Below are positions 1-63,755 of a DNA stretch of 64,000 bases, piece by piece. Numbering within the stretch: position 1 is the stretch's first letter; the number at the start of each line of letters is the position of its first letter. Under the pieces are notes generated by a model. That model was not told the origin of the DNA and ran no database searches. It saw nothing but the letters and a program-made list of their open reading frames with translations. The position numbers and the translations under genes are program-made. Source of the DNA: Exiguobacterium acetylicum (GTDB taxonomy: Bacteria > Bacillota > Bacilli > Exiguobacteriales > Exiguobacteriaceae); contig NZ_CP081878.1 in assembly GCF_022170825.1 (NCBI RefSeq), positions 1,514,001 through 1,578,000 of the forward strand, in the 5' to 3' direction.

Positions 1-172
1 ATGTTTCGATGAAACGCGCATCGGTAAACGGACGCATGCGTTTTTCAAGCACGGTCGTATTCTCGAACGGTAAATGGTAGGCGAAGGCTTCCAGTAAGCT
101 CGGTAACTGATCAAATGTAATCGTCTCAAGCGGATACGCAATCCGCTGTGCTAAGTCTTTCATCCAAGGCAT
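1..172 (-). CDS. Arylamine N-acetyltransferase-like protein, 3' end cut by window
   Basis: Only the first 57 codons are present; the rest lies left of the window. The start is ATG at 172, eight bases after an AAAGGAGG ribosome binding site. The translated segment contains AFAYHLPFENTTV, which matches the conserved N-terminal region of arylamine N-acetyltransferases (a histidine, then PFEN). This family moves the acetyl group of acetyl-CoA to arylamines in the cytoplasm. The catalytic Cys-His-Asp residues would lie further in and cannot be checked. The gene is divergent from the siderophore operon to its right. Assignment rests on one motif, so it is moderate. Confidence 0.6.
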   Translation of the reverse strand, partial: MPWMKDLAQRIAYPLETITFDQLPSLLEAFAYHLPFENTTVLEKRMRPFTDARFIET

Positions 173-284
173 CTCTAGTTCCTCCTTTATTCACTACCTG
201 ATTATCCCATATTACTTCAGAAAATGTGGATTTTAGCCTATATTATCTGAAAATAAGGATAACCCTTTTGTTCGATGGAAATCT

Positions 285-323
285 TTGATATGCTGAGACA
301 GGATTAATTAAGAATGATTCTCA
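285..323 (+). promoter_or_regulatory. Promoter with overlapping Fur box for siderophore operon
   Basis: A -35 like TTGATA (285-290) and a -10 like TAAGAA (309-314) are separated by 18 bases. The stretch 309-323, TAAGAATGATTCTCA, fits the 7-1-7 Fur core TGATAATnATTATCA with 11 of 14 arm positions, and it covers the -10. Iron-bound Fur would therefore block RNA polymerase and the operon would be made when iron is scarce. The function of the downstream genes supports this reading. Confidence 0.65.
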
Positions 324-355
324 ATGTCGAATCACGAATTAAAGGGGGTCTCACC

Positions 356-1276
356 ATGAGACGGAAAACTTGGATGACAGCGTTGACGCTCCTCGTGTTG
401 AGCAGTTTGATGCTTGCAGCTTGTTCAGGTCAAGCAGAACAAACAGATCAAAAGACGCGGACGATCACGCACGAAGCAGGAAAAACGAAGGTACCAGAAA
501 AGCCGAAAAAGGTCGTCGCGCTCGAATTCTCATTCGTTGATGCACTAGACGAGCTCGGTATCACACCAGTCGGGATCGCACAAGAAAACAAGACCGATGT
601 TTCCGGACTACTCGGAAAAGACATCTCGTTCACGGAAGTCGGTACACGCCAACAACCGAACCTTGAGGTGATCAGTTCTTTGCAGCCAGATTTAATTATC
701 GGTGACTTCAATCGTCACAAAGGGATTTATAAACAATTACAGGAAATTGCACCGACGATCATCCTGAAGAGTCGCAATGCAACGTACGAAGAGAATATCG
801 ATTCGTTCAAGACGATTGCGGAAGCGGTCGGTAAAACAAAACAGATGGACGATCGTCTTGCGCTGCATGAAGAGCGGTTAGAGGCAGCAAAGAAAAAGGT
901 TGATCCAAACGATGACCGGAAAGTCATGGTCGGTGTCTTCCGCGCTGATTCACTGACAGCACACGGTGAGACGTCGTTTGACGGTGAATTGCTCGAGAAG
1001 ATCGGGATCGAGAATGCTGTTACAAAAACAGCGGAACCGACTGTGACGATCACGTTAGAGCAGATGGTCAAGTGGGATCCGGATGTCATCTTCATGGCGG
1101 AAGCCGATCCGAAACTGCTGAAGGAGTGGAAAAACAATCCGCTCTGGAATCAGATCACTGCGGTCAAGAACGAGGAAGTCTACGAAGTCAATCGTGACCT
1201 CTGGACACGCTATCGTGGTCTTGACGCTGCAGAACAGATCGTCGACGAAGCGATTCAATTACTACAACAGAAATAA
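356..1276 (+). CDS. Iron-siderophore ABC transporter substrate-binding lipoprotein
   Basis: A 306-residue FecB/BtuF-type binding lipoprotein that would capture a ferric chelate outside the membrane and pass it to the two permeases encoded next. The start at ATG 356 is set by the site AAAGGGGG; an in-frame ATG at 314 lies inside the Fur box and has no such site. The N-terminus has a lysine/arginine head, a hydrophobic core and the lipobox LAAC with Cys23 as lipidation site. The following chain shows the family pattern KVVALEFSFVDALDELGI and a later substrate-binding lobe with VDEAI near the end. Closest functional relatives are the Bacillus YfmC/YhfQ/YfiY group; which siderophore is bound cannot be told. 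Confidence 0.88.
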   Translation: MRRKTWMTALTLLVLSSLMLAACSGQAEQTDQKTRTITHEAGKTKVPEKPKKVVALEFSFVDALDELGITPVGIAQENKTDVSGLLGKDISFTEVGTRQQPNLEVISSLQPDLIIGDFNRHKGIYKQLQEIAPTIILKSRNATYEENIDSFKTIAEAVGKTKQMDDRLALHEERLEAAKKKVDPNDDRKVMVGVFRADSLTAHGETSFDGELLEKIGIENAVTKTAEPTVTITLEQMVKWDPDVIFMAEADPKLLKEWKNNPLWNQITAVKNEEVYEVNRDLWTRYRGLDAAEQIVDEAIQLLQQK

Positions 1277-11770: not shown

Positions 11771-11895
11771 GAAGCGTTACGTCAAAAGCGGACCATTCGT
11801 AGCTCTTTCGTATTAGTGAAACTTGACATGACGTTAGATCGTAGATGGATTGATGGTGCGACATCTATTCAAACAAGAGATAGGAGTGTATGGTC

Positions 11896-49311: not shown

Positions 49312-49456
49312 TTCCTTTCCTCCTTCAATTCTTATACCCATTATACGCTCATCTGACAGGAAAAGTTTCAAAAATCGCTTGTGTGTGAAAGTTTTGAACA
49401 TTATGTGATATGCTAAAAATGCTATACTGTTACATACTTTAAGGGGGTTTTTAATC

Positions 49457-58547: not shown

Positions 58548-59003
58548 TTATTTGCGGCGGAAGCCTTCTTCTTCAAGATAGTTTGCTGCTTCCTTATACG
58601 AGTTGAACGCACCGTCTAAAAGATCGCCAGCGTAGACGAGCCACGTATCGATGTCTTCATTGAGTAACGTCAATTCGAACTGGTTATCGTTGACCCATGT
58701 TTCTTCAAGTGTTTCGACAGACTGGACCGTCGAGAGCGCTTTGATCGCATCTTCTAATAAGAGAATTAAAGCAGGCTCTGAGAATTCGCGGATATTGACG
58801 AAGCCTTTTTCATCCGTTTCGTATCCTGGTAGACCAGCTGCATAGACAAAACCATTTCCGTTCGGATGCAAATGATAGACGAGATTCTTCTTCTCATATT
58901 GGCTATCCGGAAATTGGAAATTGACGCGCTTCAGCGAGACATCTTTGCGGACGAGTTGTGGGAACGTCTCGATAATTCGTAGTTTTTCTTCAAAAGTTAA
59001 CAT
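58548..59003 (-). CDS. Conserved Bacillales-like soluble protein, function unknown
   Basis: A 151-residue, acidic cytoplasmic protein. Start ATG 59003 follows AAGGAGG. The text IIETFPQLVRKDVSLKRVNFQF opens, and FVNIREFSEPALILLLEDAIKAL and YAGDLLDGAFNSYKEAANYLEEE follow, giving a small alpha/beta fold. I do not recognise a named family. It lies between ohrR and the envelope operon and appears to be its own unit. Confidence 0.78.
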   Translation of the reverse strand: MLTFEEKLRIIETFPQLVRKDVSLKRVNFQFPDSQYEKKNLVYHLHPNGNGFVYAAGLPGYETDEKGFVNIREFSEPALILLLEDAIKALSTVQSVETLEETWVNDNQFELTLLNEDIDTWLVYAGDLLDGAFNSYKEAANYLEEEGFRRK

Positions 59004-59129
59004 GGTTCCTCCTTGGTGTTACAGTTCTTCACTTCTATATATGCGATGAAATCGAACAAAATGTCAACCACTGCAATGAAACCCAGCAATGATTTTAACC
59101 GTAAATGGAAACGAAAGGAAGTGTTTTTG

Positions 59130-59621
59130 ATGTCTACTGTACAATGGCATACGTTGCCAGAACGTTCGATCCGGGCAGAACGACTCGGATTGATTCCGCT
59201 CCACGGCTTGATTGCCATCATCTTAATCGGCACGACGATCACCCAAGTCATGTGGCTCGACCTGACGCCTTGGTGGATGGGGATCGCTGCTTTGCTTTGG
59301 CTCATTTACTTCATTCCCCGTATCGTCTACATACCCGTTCTTCGTGTGAAGTATATGCGTTTTCGAATCGATGAGGAATTTCTGATTGTTCGTAACGGGA
59401 TCTTTTTCCGCCGCGAAGTGACGGTGCCACTCGTGAAGGTGCAACTGATTGACAGTCAAACAGGACCAATCTTGCGGCGCTATGACTTGATCACGCTCGA
59501 CGTCCGGACAGCATCCGGCTTCGTCACGTTAGCTCGTCTTGATCGTGCGCAAGGGGACGATCTGCGCAAACAAGTCGAACGATTCGCGAAACTTGAGGAG
59601 CGGGAGGAGGAATCGTTATGA
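59130..59621 (+). CDS. ydbS: PH-domain (bPH2) membrane protein YdbS
   Basis: A 163-residue protein with two membrane helices (about residues 27-45 and 55-75) and a bacterial PH domain (DUF304, bPH2): RFRIDEEFLIVRNGIFFRREVTVPLVKVQLIDSQTGP. The last part, LITLDVRTASGFVTL, is standard. Start ATG 59130 follows AAAGGAAG. It overlaps ydbT by four bases. The pair corresponds to Bacillus ydbS-ydbT, membrane proteins of the cell-envelope stress regulon, and may act against cationic peptides. Confidence 0.9.
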   Translation: MSTVQWHTLPERSIRAERLGLIPLHGLIAIILIGTTITQVMWLDLTPWWMGIAALLWLIYFIPRIVYIPVLRVKYMRFRIDEEFLIVRNGIFFRREVTVPLVKVQLIDSQTGPILRRYDLITLDVRTASGFVTLARLDRAQGDDLRKQVERFAKLEEREEESL

Positions 59622-61066
59622 CACGGCGCGTTCATCCGCTGTTCATCTTGATGTCGAGCATCTCGATCATCCGTTCACTCCTGATTCCGTTTGCCGCCTT
59701 GATTTTAAATGCAATCCGTAAAGGGGAAATCAATACCTATACGTGGATCGGGATCAGTGTCGGGATGTTGTTCGTCATCCTCTACGGGATCGCTTCTTGG
59801 TACTTTTATACTTTTACGATTGATGCCGAGACGATTCGTGTCCGCAAAGGCATTTTTCAAAAAAGTGAACGGACGACGCAACGCAAACGCATCGAGTCGA
59901 TCGGGATTCAGCAAAACGTCATCGAACGTCTGTTGCGTCTTGCGACATTGACGGTCGAGACGTCGTCCGAGAGCGGAACACCGGAAGTCGAGCTGAAGGG
60001 AATCCGGCTTGATTTTGCGAAAGAATTGAAGTCGTCGATAAAAAACGACGGACCTAGCGTCGCGAAGGAAGAATCTGAAGAAATCGCCTATACGATTCCC
60101 GTCCGTGATTTAGCGTTAGCAGGTGCGTTGTCTGGACGCGTCGGACTGGCACTCGTCGGGATCGGAACCGCTTATCAGTTCATCGACCAATTCATCGAAC
60201 GCTATGTCGACCGGTTGTTCTCGGAACTCGCCCATTTGTCATTACTCGTCTTGAGTGGACTCGGCATCCTTGTCCTCCTCGTCATCTATATCGGTTCGAT
60301 CATCGTCTATATTTTGAAATACGGCTCATACCGCGCTGTGTTGCAGCACAATCGTTTGTTAATCGGCTACGGCATGTTGAACCGGACCGAAGTGGCGTTT
60401 CACGCCGATAAGATTCAAGCTCTCGTCATTCAAGAAAGTTGGATTCAGCGTTTGATTGGTCGGGCGAGTCTGTCCTTACACATCATCTCGGCGACTGGGG
60501 AAAAGGAGCGTCTGTTGCTCCATCCATTCATCCGGACGAACGAGATCGGTGGCTTTCTTGCAACGTATCTACCGCGCTTTCGCCAGTTCAAGCCACAGTA
60601 CGATGTCGCACCGATCGGCTTCCGTTACCGGGTCCGTTGGCCGCTACTTGGTTATGCGCTTTTGTTTACTGCACTGAGCAGTGTCGTGATCATCGTCCTT
60701 GACTCTTCCTGGCGCTTCTTGATCTTGCTGCTATTCATCTGGTTACCGTTCTATTATCTGGCTGTGCGAAGCGGCTACCGGAAGACACGGTTTGGAACGG
60801 GACACGATCTCTTGATGTTACGCAAACAATGGGTGCAAAAAGAAACGGTCTATACGCCACGACTGAAGATTGAGGAATTAACCTGGTCTGTCTCCCGCTG
60901 GCTCGAAGCAAAGGAGATTGCCCGGATTCAGATTCAACTGCGCGGCAATACGGCGTTTCATGCCCTCTATTTTGAACGAACGGACATTGACACCTTACAA
61001 CGGTGGTATAAACAATCGTTCCTTTCGACACCGCTAGCAGGGGAAGCTGAAACCGACGACGAATAA
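59618..61066 (+). CDS. ydbT: PH-domain (bPH2) membrane protein YdbT
   Basis: A 482-residue protein with three PH-like domains set among membrane helices. The first (about residues 60-130; IDAETIRVRKGIFQKSERTT and KRIESIGIQQNVIERLL), the second near VLQHNRLLIGYGMLNRTEVAFHADKIQ, and the third at the C-terminus around RTDIDTLQRWY. Helix pairs occur near residues 8-50, 160-245 and 345-385. Start ATG 59618 overlaps ydbS. It is the membrane partner of YdbS. Role in the envelope is inferred from the Bacillus pair. Confidence 0.9.
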   Translation: MTRRVHPLFILMSSISIIRSLLIPFAALILNAIRKGEINTYTWIGISVGMLFVILYGIASWYFYTFTIDAETIRVRKGIFQKSERTTQRKRIESIGIQQNVIERLLRLATLTVETSSESGTPEVELKGIRLDFAKELKSSIKNDGPSVAKEESEEIAYTIPVRDLALAGALSGRVGLALVGIGTAYQFIDQFIERYVDRLFSELAHLSLLVLSGLGILVLLVIYIGSIIVYILKYGSYRAVLQHNRLLIGYGMLNRTEVAFHADKIQALVIQESWIQRLIGRASLSLHIISATGEKERLLLHPFIRTNEIGGFLATYLPRFRQFKPQYDVAPIGFRYRVRWPLLGYALLFTALSSVVIIVLDSSWRFLILLLFIWLPFYYLAVRSGYRKTRFGTGHDLLMLRKQWVQKETVYTPRLKIEELTWSVSRWLEAKEIARIQIQLRGNTAFHALYFERTDIDTLQRWYKQSFLSTPLAGEAETDDE

Positions 61067-61100: not shown

Positions 61101-62018
61101 ATGCGCAAATGGGGAATCGGCATCGTGGTGCTCGTCACGTGTCTGCTATTATATATCGTCTATGACGGATACCGGATTCAGCAAACATTGATCGGTCAGT
61201 CGGACGCCTCTCCGATTTTAAAATCAACGAGCGAGCAACAAGTGAGCCAAGACGAGACGTGGTTCAAACAAACGAGCGAGACACAACAATGGTCAAAAGA
61301 CGGAGTCGTCCGTTTCGGTCGTTATCTACCTGCTACTGGTAGCAAACAGACAGTCCTTCTCGTACCAGACGAGATCGGCTTTTCGCAGACTGGTGCCTAT
61401 GCACTAGCTCGCTATTATCATGATGCTAAGTTTAACGTCCTACTCATTGAACGACGTGGACAGGAACGAAGTGGTGGGGTCCGAAACTACGGTTGGCTCG
61501 ATCGACTCGATGTCTTGGAGTGGACGCAGCGCCTGCTTGCTGAAAACGGAGATGATACTCGGATTGTCTATCACGGACTAGGTGTTGGCGCTGCAACTGT
61601 CTTACTCGCTACTGGTGAGACTTTACCGACTCAAGTCCGTGCCGTCGTCGCTGAAGGAGCTTACGCCCGGCTTGACGACTGGTTCAGCCTACTCGCAGAC
61701 GAACAGATTCGTTACCCGGCACTCCCGTCTCTGACGGTCGCAAGCATGTGGAATAAGGGCGAACAGGACTTCTTTTATGGCGACGTCTCCGTGACACGCC
61801 AAGCGACGAAAAGTCGTATTCCGACGATGTTCATCCACGGACTGAAGGACGAACTCGTTCCGGTCCGGATGATGTATGAACTGTATCAAGCAAAAACCGG
61901 TCTTAAACAATTGTACCCGGTCCGTAATGCTGGGCATGATGAGACGTATACGCTAGACCCAGACAACTACGAAAAACGATTACGCTTATTCTTGCAGCCA
62001 TACTTGCGGGATATGTAA
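61101..62018 (+). CDS. Membrane-anchored alpha/beta hydrolase lacking the nucleophile
   Basis: A 305-residue protein with an N-terminal membrane helix (about residues 3-21) and an alpha/beta-hydrolase fold of the YqkD type. Expected landmarks are present or altered: the nucleophile elbow reads YHGLGVGAATVLLATGE, so Gly161 replaces the Ser of GxSxG. Asp250 (GLKDELVP) and His279 (NAGHDETY) of the triad remain, while the early oxyanion HG is replaced by PD. Start ATG 61101 follows AAAGGAAG. It may be a non-catalytic relative. It is third in the ydbS operon. Confidence 0.82.
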   Translation: MRKWGIGIVVLVTCLLLYIVYDGYRIQQTLIGQSDASPILKSTSEQQVSQDETWFKQTSETQQWSKDGVVRFGRYLPATGSKQTVLLVPDEIGFSQTGAYALARYYHDAKFNVLLIERRGQERSGGVRNYGWLDRLDVLEWTQRLLAENGDDTRIVYHGLGVGAATVLLATGETLPTQVRAVVAEGAYARLDDWFSLLADEQIRYPALPSLTVASMWNKGEQDFFYGDVSVTRQATKSRIPTMFIHGLKDELVPVRMMYELYQAKTGLKQLYPVRNAGHDETYTLDPDNYEKRLRLFLQPYLRDM

Positions 62019-62036: not shown

Positions 62037-62828
62037 ATGCACACTACACAAGTATCCCATTACTGGGTCGGTTCCGACGAACCGTTCGTCGATCAACAAC
62101 AAATCGACCAGTTTGGTCCAATTACACTTGGACGTTTCGGTGGTTGCTCAAACAGTGGCCAGTATAAAAACGAAGATGGGGCTGCCATCCTAATCGGAGA
62201 TGATTGGGAGATGACCGTCGTTTTAGATGCTCACAAAACAGCAGATAGCGCAGCATTTGTCTTACAGCAATTGGCACAACATGAGTCGCGAATCCGAGAT
62301 GATTTAGATGCACCACTTGCTGAAGCATTCGGACGAATCGAGACAACCGTGCTGGATCTGTTTCAAGACCCGGATTTTTTAGCAGCCTGCACAACGTTAC
62401 AAGGCGAAACGGCATGTCTGATCGCCGTCCGCAAAGAACGCTTCATCTGGTGGTTATCGGTCGGCGACGTCGTCTTGTATCTGTTTCATTCGGATTTGAT
62501 GAAGATGGGACAAGCCGCCTTGAATCAGCGACAGTTCTATGAATGGATTGGACGTGCGAACACATTCGCGTTACCGGTCCCGAGTTATACCCGTGGCGTC
62601 CGCGAATTGCGGCAAGGGGAGAACCGATTGTTCGTGACGACGGACGGTCTGCTTGAATGCCCACATGCACCGTATGCTGAACCGAGACAGATCGAGAACG
62701 CATTACAATCAGGTGGTGTCGCTGAACTGCTCTCGACGATCGAAGCATATGGCGTTCGCGACAGCACGACGGTCGTCACGTGGACGGTCACGATTGAAGA
62801 GACGGTCACTCAACCCAGCGATACATGA
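62037..62828 (+). CDS. PP2C-like protein phosphatase
   Basis: A 263-residue protein of PP2C-like fold. Landmarks are NEDGAAILIGDDWEMTVVLDAH (the metal-binding region, in which the usual Asp-Gly-His reads Asp-Ala-His), GETACLIAVRKERFIWWLSVGDVVLYLF, TTDGLLE and VRDSTTVVTWTV. The metal set is mostly retained. Start ATG 62037 lies 18 bases after the previous gene behind GCAGAGGAG. It is last in the operon with ydbS, ydbT and the hydrolase-like gene, and it might reverse phosphorylation of an envelope kinase. Confidence 0.78.
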   Translation: MHTTQVSHYWVGSDEPFVDQQQIDQFGPITLGRFGGCSNSGQYKNEDGAAILIGDDWEMTVVLDAHKTADSAAFVLQQLAQHESRIRDDLDAPLAEAFGRIETTVLDLFQDPDFLAACTTLQGETACLIAVRKERFIWWLSVGDVVLYLFHSDLMKMGQAALNQRQFYEWIGRANTFALPVPSYTRGVRELRQGENRLFVTTDGLLECPHAPYAEPRQIENALQSGGVAELLSTIEAYGVRDSTTVVTWTVTIEETVTQPSDT

Positions 62829-62830
62829 AA

Positions 62831-62868
62831 CAACCCGCGCTCTTGATTGAGCGCGGGTTGTTATTATT
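62831..62868 (+). terminator. Terminator of the ydbS operon
   Basis: CAACCCGCGCTC pairs perfectly with GAGCGCGGGTTG around six bases, with a T-rich tail. Confidence 0.95.
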
Positions 62869-63158: not shown

Positions 63159-63755
63159 TTGAAATTAACGAAAGCCAACACTCGTCTATTAGAAACTGTT
63201 TTACCACGATTGAATCTGAATGTCGCAGAACCAGACCGAACGGAGATTGAAGACCGCCTGCGGGCAGATATCTACGAAGCGCAGCGGAAACAACGACCAT
63301 TTGAGGAGATACACGGTCTATCCGTCGAAGCGCGACTTGATCAGATGATCGCCGAATTACCACAACGGCACCGGATGGAGACGCAAAAGCGATGGACGCG
63401 AAACTACGTCTCATCGATTTTGATGTTCATCTTCATCGAAGGCATCGATGGGTTGTTCCAGTTCGCTTTGATCGATTACTTATTCTTCTCGATCATCGCC
63501 TTGTTCTTGATTGACGCGATGTCACAAGTCATCACGGCGCCGAAAATCAAGCAAGTCAAGCCGAAGGTGTGGATTCAATTCATCATCAGCTTCATATTAT
63601 TCTCAACCTACAAGGCACTGCTCGTAACGGTCTTCCCGGCACCAGACGTCTTGATCCAAGTCAGTGGAACGCCGTCTTATATCATCGGCATCGCGGGACT
63701 GGTCGGTCTTTACATCTACTGGTCAAAGAATCCGTTACGAAAACGCGGCGCATAA
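63159..63755 (+). CDS. Membrane protein with soluble N-terminal domain, function unknown
   Basis: A 198-residue protein. The first 85 residues are helical and charged (DRTEIEDRLRADIYEAQRK); four membrane helices follow (about residues 86-185). This layout resembles DUF1129-like Bacillus proteins, but the match is loose. TTG start 63159 follows GGGGGAAATCGA. It is followed after 21 bases by a further gene. Confidence 0.72.
   Translation: MKLTKANTRLLETVLPRLNLNVAEPDRTEIEDRLRADIYEAQRKQRPFEEIHGLSVEARLDQMIAELPQRHRMETQKRWTRNYVSSILMFIFIEGIDGLFQFALIDYLFFSIIALFLIDAMSQVITAPKIKQVKPKVWIQFIISFILFSTYKALLVTVFPAPDVLIQVSGTPSYIIGIAGLVGLYIYWSKNPLRKRGA

Follow-up and report, generated by a model that had tools for sequence, protein, structure and literature searches.

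A predicted alpha/beta hydrolase without its nucleophile

What does an esterase-shaped protein that has lost its catalytic serine do in an envelope operon? The question is raised by a gene at 61101-62018 on the forward strand of the window (the whole 64,000-nucleotide stretch of Exiguobacterium acetylicum DNA that was analysed, from contig NZ_CP081878.1), which begins with ATG and encodes a protein of 305 aa, referred to here as the pseudo-hydrolase. An AlphaFold2 model built from a 36-row alignment reached a mean pLDDT of 92.2 and displayed the usual order of strands and helices, with the Pyrococcus esterase Pf2001 as its best PDB match (Z 27.9, rmsd 3.0 over 262 residues; Foldseek, VIA-align). 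The Abhydrolase_1 profile matched at 29.2 bits, above its cut-off, and model and profile together indicate a predicted alpha/beta-hydrolase fold, with its strand/helix core and a nucleophile elbow after strand 5. Ahead of the hydrolase domain, the predicted structure has an N-terminal helix (residues 2-30) that is likely to be a membrane anchor. A search of NCBIfam with the protein returned no named family, and we take its family to be YqkD-like. Limited literature searches found nothing on YqkD as a Bacillus hydrolase and, for bacterial hydrolase-fold pseudoenzymes with a changed nucleophile, surfaced only work on human and plasmodium hydrolases.

The sequence-only reading of this DNA had described an elbow of HGLGVGAA with intact codons, a retained Asp250 and His279, and PD at the oxyanion position, all of which were located as claimed when the reading frame was re-read. 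Residues 158-165 are HGLGVGAA, the core of the elbow (HGLGVG, residues 158-163) lies at 61572-61589 with codons 159-163 reading GGA CTA GGT GTT GGC, and Gly161 (61581-61583) stands in place of serine. The former oxyanion HG is now Pro89-Asp90 (61365-61370), whereas the triad acid Asp250 (61848-61850) and the triad histidine His279 (61935-61937) are kept. Thus, among the features of YqkD-like serine hydrolases, the triad Asp and His are present, and the serine of GxSxG and the oxyanion HG are missing.

Conservation and origin of the glycine

An orthologue was found in all 19 Exiguobacterium genomes searched, and the elbow residue is Gly in every one, including the most divergent copy (that of genome G007, at ~42% identity). 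A strain-specific loss of serine, the outcome that would have overturned the earlier reading, is thereby ruled out. One copy, in genome G016, is frameshifted near codon 230, and this may be genuine or an assembly error. Across the 18 intact copies, codon 161 is GGT, GGG or GGA, indicating that the residue has been kept while the codon drifts. Position 89 is P, A or D in these copies and position 90 is Asp in all 18, and Asp250 and His279 are likewise present in 18/18. The claim that the protein is not a serine esterase is therefore well supported across the genus, with the nucleophile absent from 19/19 genomes and the oxyanion motif from all intact copies.

To place the loss, relatives were collected by a search of 398 genomes of the class, all but the 20 weakest rows being read. 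The elbow was read in 141 related rows, 121 with Ser and 20 with Gly; the latter comprise the 19 Exiguobacterium orthologues and a single further row, so that all but one of the 122 rows from outside these orthologues keep Ser. No Gly clade outside Exiguobacterium was seen among the class-search rows read, or in the family's second genus, where the 19 genomes listed gave no match at E 1e-25. The lone exception (L206, positions 17-970, forward strand, genome G275, from another family of the class) represents an independent Ser-to-Gly change, with an elbow of HGEGMG and the oxyanion HGY kept.

For the phylogeny, four rows were dropped (L009, frameshifted; L021 and L149, duplicates of L057 and L020; L059, an outlier), the remaining 137 were thinned to 74 at 85% identity, and the tree was built without the elbow and oxyanion columns. 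The Exiguobacterium Gly rows formed one group on a long stem (SH-aLRT 99), although the placement of the G007 copy within the tree is less sure because of its long branch. Two Ser-to-Gly changes were needed on the 74-row tree, the second being that of L206. These results suggest a single origin in the Exiguobacterium ancestor, from a serine-hydrolase relative. Such a relative is encoded in the same genome, where a serine paralogue (L045), one of the YqkD-like or S9-S15-like membrane-anchored hydrolases of Bacilli, has 32% identity to the pseudo-hydrolase. The YqkD-like serine hydrolases and the pseudo-hydrolase have in common the fold, the N-terminal hydrophobic helix, Asp250, His279 and the Gly/Pro core, but the elbow and oxyanion motifs are HGxSMG and HGY in the relatives and HGxGxG and xD in the pseudo-hydrolase.

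Conserved residues lost and gained

Column conservation was counted without L206 and the four rows dropped from the tree. In the 118 serine rows, 22 columns are conserved at ≥95%; the Gly clade retains 12 of them, and the other 10 are lost, a lost column being one with the family residue in <90% of Gly-clade rows. The losses (L71, H89, G90, G110, R119, G122, S124, S161, M162 and H246) fall chiefly on the nucleophile, on the oxyanion positions and on the RGxGxS loop, with R119 changed in 2/18 and H246 in 4/18; the kept columns are mostly core Gly and Pro together with D137, D250, H279 and Y290. The roles given here to the nucleophile, oxyanion and RGxGxS motifs are their usual ones in the alpha/beta-hydrolase fold. 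Taken together, this pattern indicates that the serine-esterase mechanism is gone, as far as can be read from sequence, by a coordinated genus-wide loss in which the protein was retained. The nucleophile and the oxyanion hole were lost, but the fold was kept, as were the Asp and His of the triad and many invariant positions of the C-terminal half.

Each of the 18 intact copies has also gained two acids, Asp90, exactly at the oxyanion Gly of the relatives, and Asp223 (61767-61769), which is Gly in at least 90% of the Ser relatives. A pure scaffold would not need an invariant Asp250 and His279, a point against a non-catalytic reading, and together with the gained acids these residues would be compatible with an acidic ligand site or with residual chemistry. 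One alternative is accordingly an enzyme of another kind, in which Asp90, His279 and Asp250 would serve in acid/base chemistry without a covalent serine step. The invariance of these three residues and of Asp223 speaks for it, but given that the oxyanion motif, the RGxGxS loop and the nucleophile have all eroded, and that the elbow residue was not replaced by Ser, Cys or Asp, we consider such an enzyme unlikely.

Selection on the pseudo-hydrolase

For the pseudo-hydrolase, the 28 pairs of the near subclade gave a median dN/dS of 0.085 and the 22 usable pairs of the other subclade one of 0.112, indicating that the gene is under purifying selection. The nucleophile has thus been lost while the gene is retained under selection, as in a non-catalytic alpha/beta hydrolase. 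The serine paralogue of the same genomes is far more constrained (omega 0.013 and 0.026), and per-column pairwise identity of the pseudo-hydrolase lies below that of the paralogue in every region. The deficit is largest across the linker, the oxyanion strand and the helix that follows the oxyanion loop, and smallest for the helix that follows strand 7. The pace of divergence is in line with that of its operon neighbours: identity to the distant subclade is 52-56% for the pseudo-hydrolase, 53-58% for YdbT, 52-57% for PP2C and 47-50% for YdbS (the last from the three distant-subclade loci holding YdbS). A shift of conservation toward the C-terminal half was also tested for and was not significant, 18/248 circular shifts being equally large.

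The faster evolution relative to the paralogue and the one frameshifted copy among 19 might indicate a decaying gene heading for loss. However, 18 of the 19 copies are open, omega is well below 1, 73 columns are invariant and the Gly codon has changed only synonymously, and we regard decay as very improbable. An esterase-shaped protein that has lost its serine yet is kept by selection probably binds rather than cuts. The tighter constraint on the paralogue, the G016 frameshift and the lack of a significant C-terminal shift count against this explanation.

Operon and promoter

The sequence-only reading had placed the gene in an envelope operon with ydbS, ydbT and a PP2C-like phosphatase. Domain searches upheld this, detecting bPH_2 in a 163-aa ydbS-like product (59130-59621), two bPH_2 stretches in a 482-aa ydbT-like product (59618-61066) and PP2C_2 in a 263-aa phosphatase-like product (62037-62828), and all four genes run in the same, forward direction. 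The envelope assignment is extended by a sigmaW-type promoter, TGAAAC-N17-CGTA (59077-59103, forward strand), 26 bases upstream of the ydbS ATG, and by a terminator-like hairpin after PP2C (62829-62862, forward strand; 14 pairs with a T-rich tail), the latter a pattern match only, in a region with 8 such sites against 5.7 expected.

The exact -35/-10 pair precedes ydbS in 18/18 ydbST-bearing Exiguobacterium genomes, with 11 distinct spacers, so that each has the TGAAAC-N16/17-CGTA pattern of the SigW regulon at the operon head. It is also found, with N16 or N17, upstream of ydbS in 4/4 second-genus loci examined, and among six other genomes of the class it is present in two (G050 and G038) and absent in four (G047, G048, G037 and G045). 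Across the genome that contains the window, 35 occurrences of the N16/N17 pattern were counted, versus 11 for a reversed control. One copy lies upstream of the sigW gene (256.7 bits, above cut-off), and others lie upstream of NfeD- and Spo0M-family genes. The B. subtilis ydbS-ydbT pair is described as part of the sigmaW regulon (PMC3498285), and B. subtilis ydbST as protecting against amylocyclicin (PMC8144471). On this evidence the operon most likely belongs to the SigW envelope-stress response. A limited literature search found nothing on sigma W envelope stress in Exiguobacterium. Further sigmaW-type matches in the window lie at 11817-11843 (forward strand) and 49344-49370 (reverse strand), respectively 46 and 2 bases upstream of reading frames.

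Retention of the protein without YdbST

Given that ydbST lies directly upstream in 18/19 Exiguobacterium genomes, the pseudo-hydrolase might be a dedicated accessory subunit of a YdbS-YdbT membrane complex, of the sort implicated elsewhere in bacteriocin resistance or transport; the YdbS/YdbT-like proteins DdE/DdF are reported to be required for transport of the leaderless bacteriocin enterocin DD14 (PMC8657885). The remaining genome, G007 (100% complete), argues against this. There, the Gly protein sits between its usual neighbours, DUF1129 and a homologue of the reverse-strand ORF (58548-59003), but ydbS-ydbT are missing from the site; no YdbT match was found anywhere in the genome at E 1e-5, PP2C is on another contig, and a sigmaW-type site looked for before the Gly-protein gene was not found. 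That G007 retains the protein with none of ydbST, PP2C and the promoter nearby implies a function that goes beyond serving as a YdbST subunit and must be independent of YdbST, at least in that genome. Moreover, both second-genus loci listed have ydbST without the pseudo-hydrolase. A dedicated subunit is therefore rather doubtful, if somewhat more plausible than an enzyme of altered chemistry. As for the structural or binding role that had been proposed within the operon, the envelope setting stands, while tying the role to the operon alone is weakened by G007.

A probable binding protein and its known counterparts

We consider it probable, if by no means certain, that the pseudo-hydrolase is a non-catalytic, extracytoplasmic, membrane-anchored binding protein with an alpha/beta-hydrolase fold, recruited to the SigW response. 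Its N-terminal helix is most likely a membrane anchor, with the hydrolase domain on the outer side. Encoded with YdbS, YdbT and the PP2C phosphatase behind the putative envelope-stress promoter, the protein would most likely bind a partner (a peptide, a lipid or another protein) when the membrane is under stress. A bolder version, which we hold to be improbable, is that the dead site was rebuilt as an acidic one (Asp90, Asp223, Asp250 and His279), where a metal or a cationic, membrane-active peptide would be bound on the outer side of the cell. The protein would then be a bacterial counterpart of neuroligin-type receptors and would serve the SigW response to bacteriocins as a sensor or as a decoy.

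Non-catalytic alpha/beta hydrolases are already known, and the Exiguobacterium clade is probably a further case. Neuroligins, gliotactin, neurotactin and the thyroglobulin C-terminal domain are described as having a similarly non-catalytic fold, with partner-binding or chaperone roles (PMC5943944, PMC8526735). That group belongs to the animal cholinesterase family, to which the pseudo-hydrolase gave only a weak phmmer match, over 60 residues around the elbow (E 0.006). The NDRG family is likewise reported to be non-enzymatic through catalytic substitution (PMC7022630), but NDRG3 is described as having lost all three triad residues, whereas the pseudo-hydrolase keeps Asp and His. The cases in the cited literature are animal proteins. 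The Exiguobacterium clade is bacterial, and its single traced nucleophile loss, the serine paralogue in the same genomes and a defined stress promoter would allow the proposed change of an enzyme into a binder to be tested in a genus that is small and can be cultured. The protein is also a new candidate component of SigW-controlled protection against membrane-active peptides. Compared with the same bPH_2 gene pair in the B. subtilis sigmaW regulon (PMC3498285), where ydbST is described as reading into acpS, that of Exiguobacterium reads into the pseudo-hydrolase and PP2C.

Other features were also observed. After the operon, a DUF1129 membrane protein is encoded at 63159-63755 (forward strand) and occurs in 19/19 Exiguobacterium genomes and 0/18 others searched. 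In genome G002, ydbT is split by a frame change, and a TnpB-like gene (locus L003, 2567-3745, reverse strand; Cas12f1-like_TNB at 82.6 bits, OrfB_IS605 below cut-off) lies between the pseudo-hydrolase and PP2C genes. Finally, genome G000 has a second YdbT-like gene, a distant one at 23% identity, on the reverse strand of contig C1 (1470065-1471030); such a gene was seen in G002 and G005 as well.
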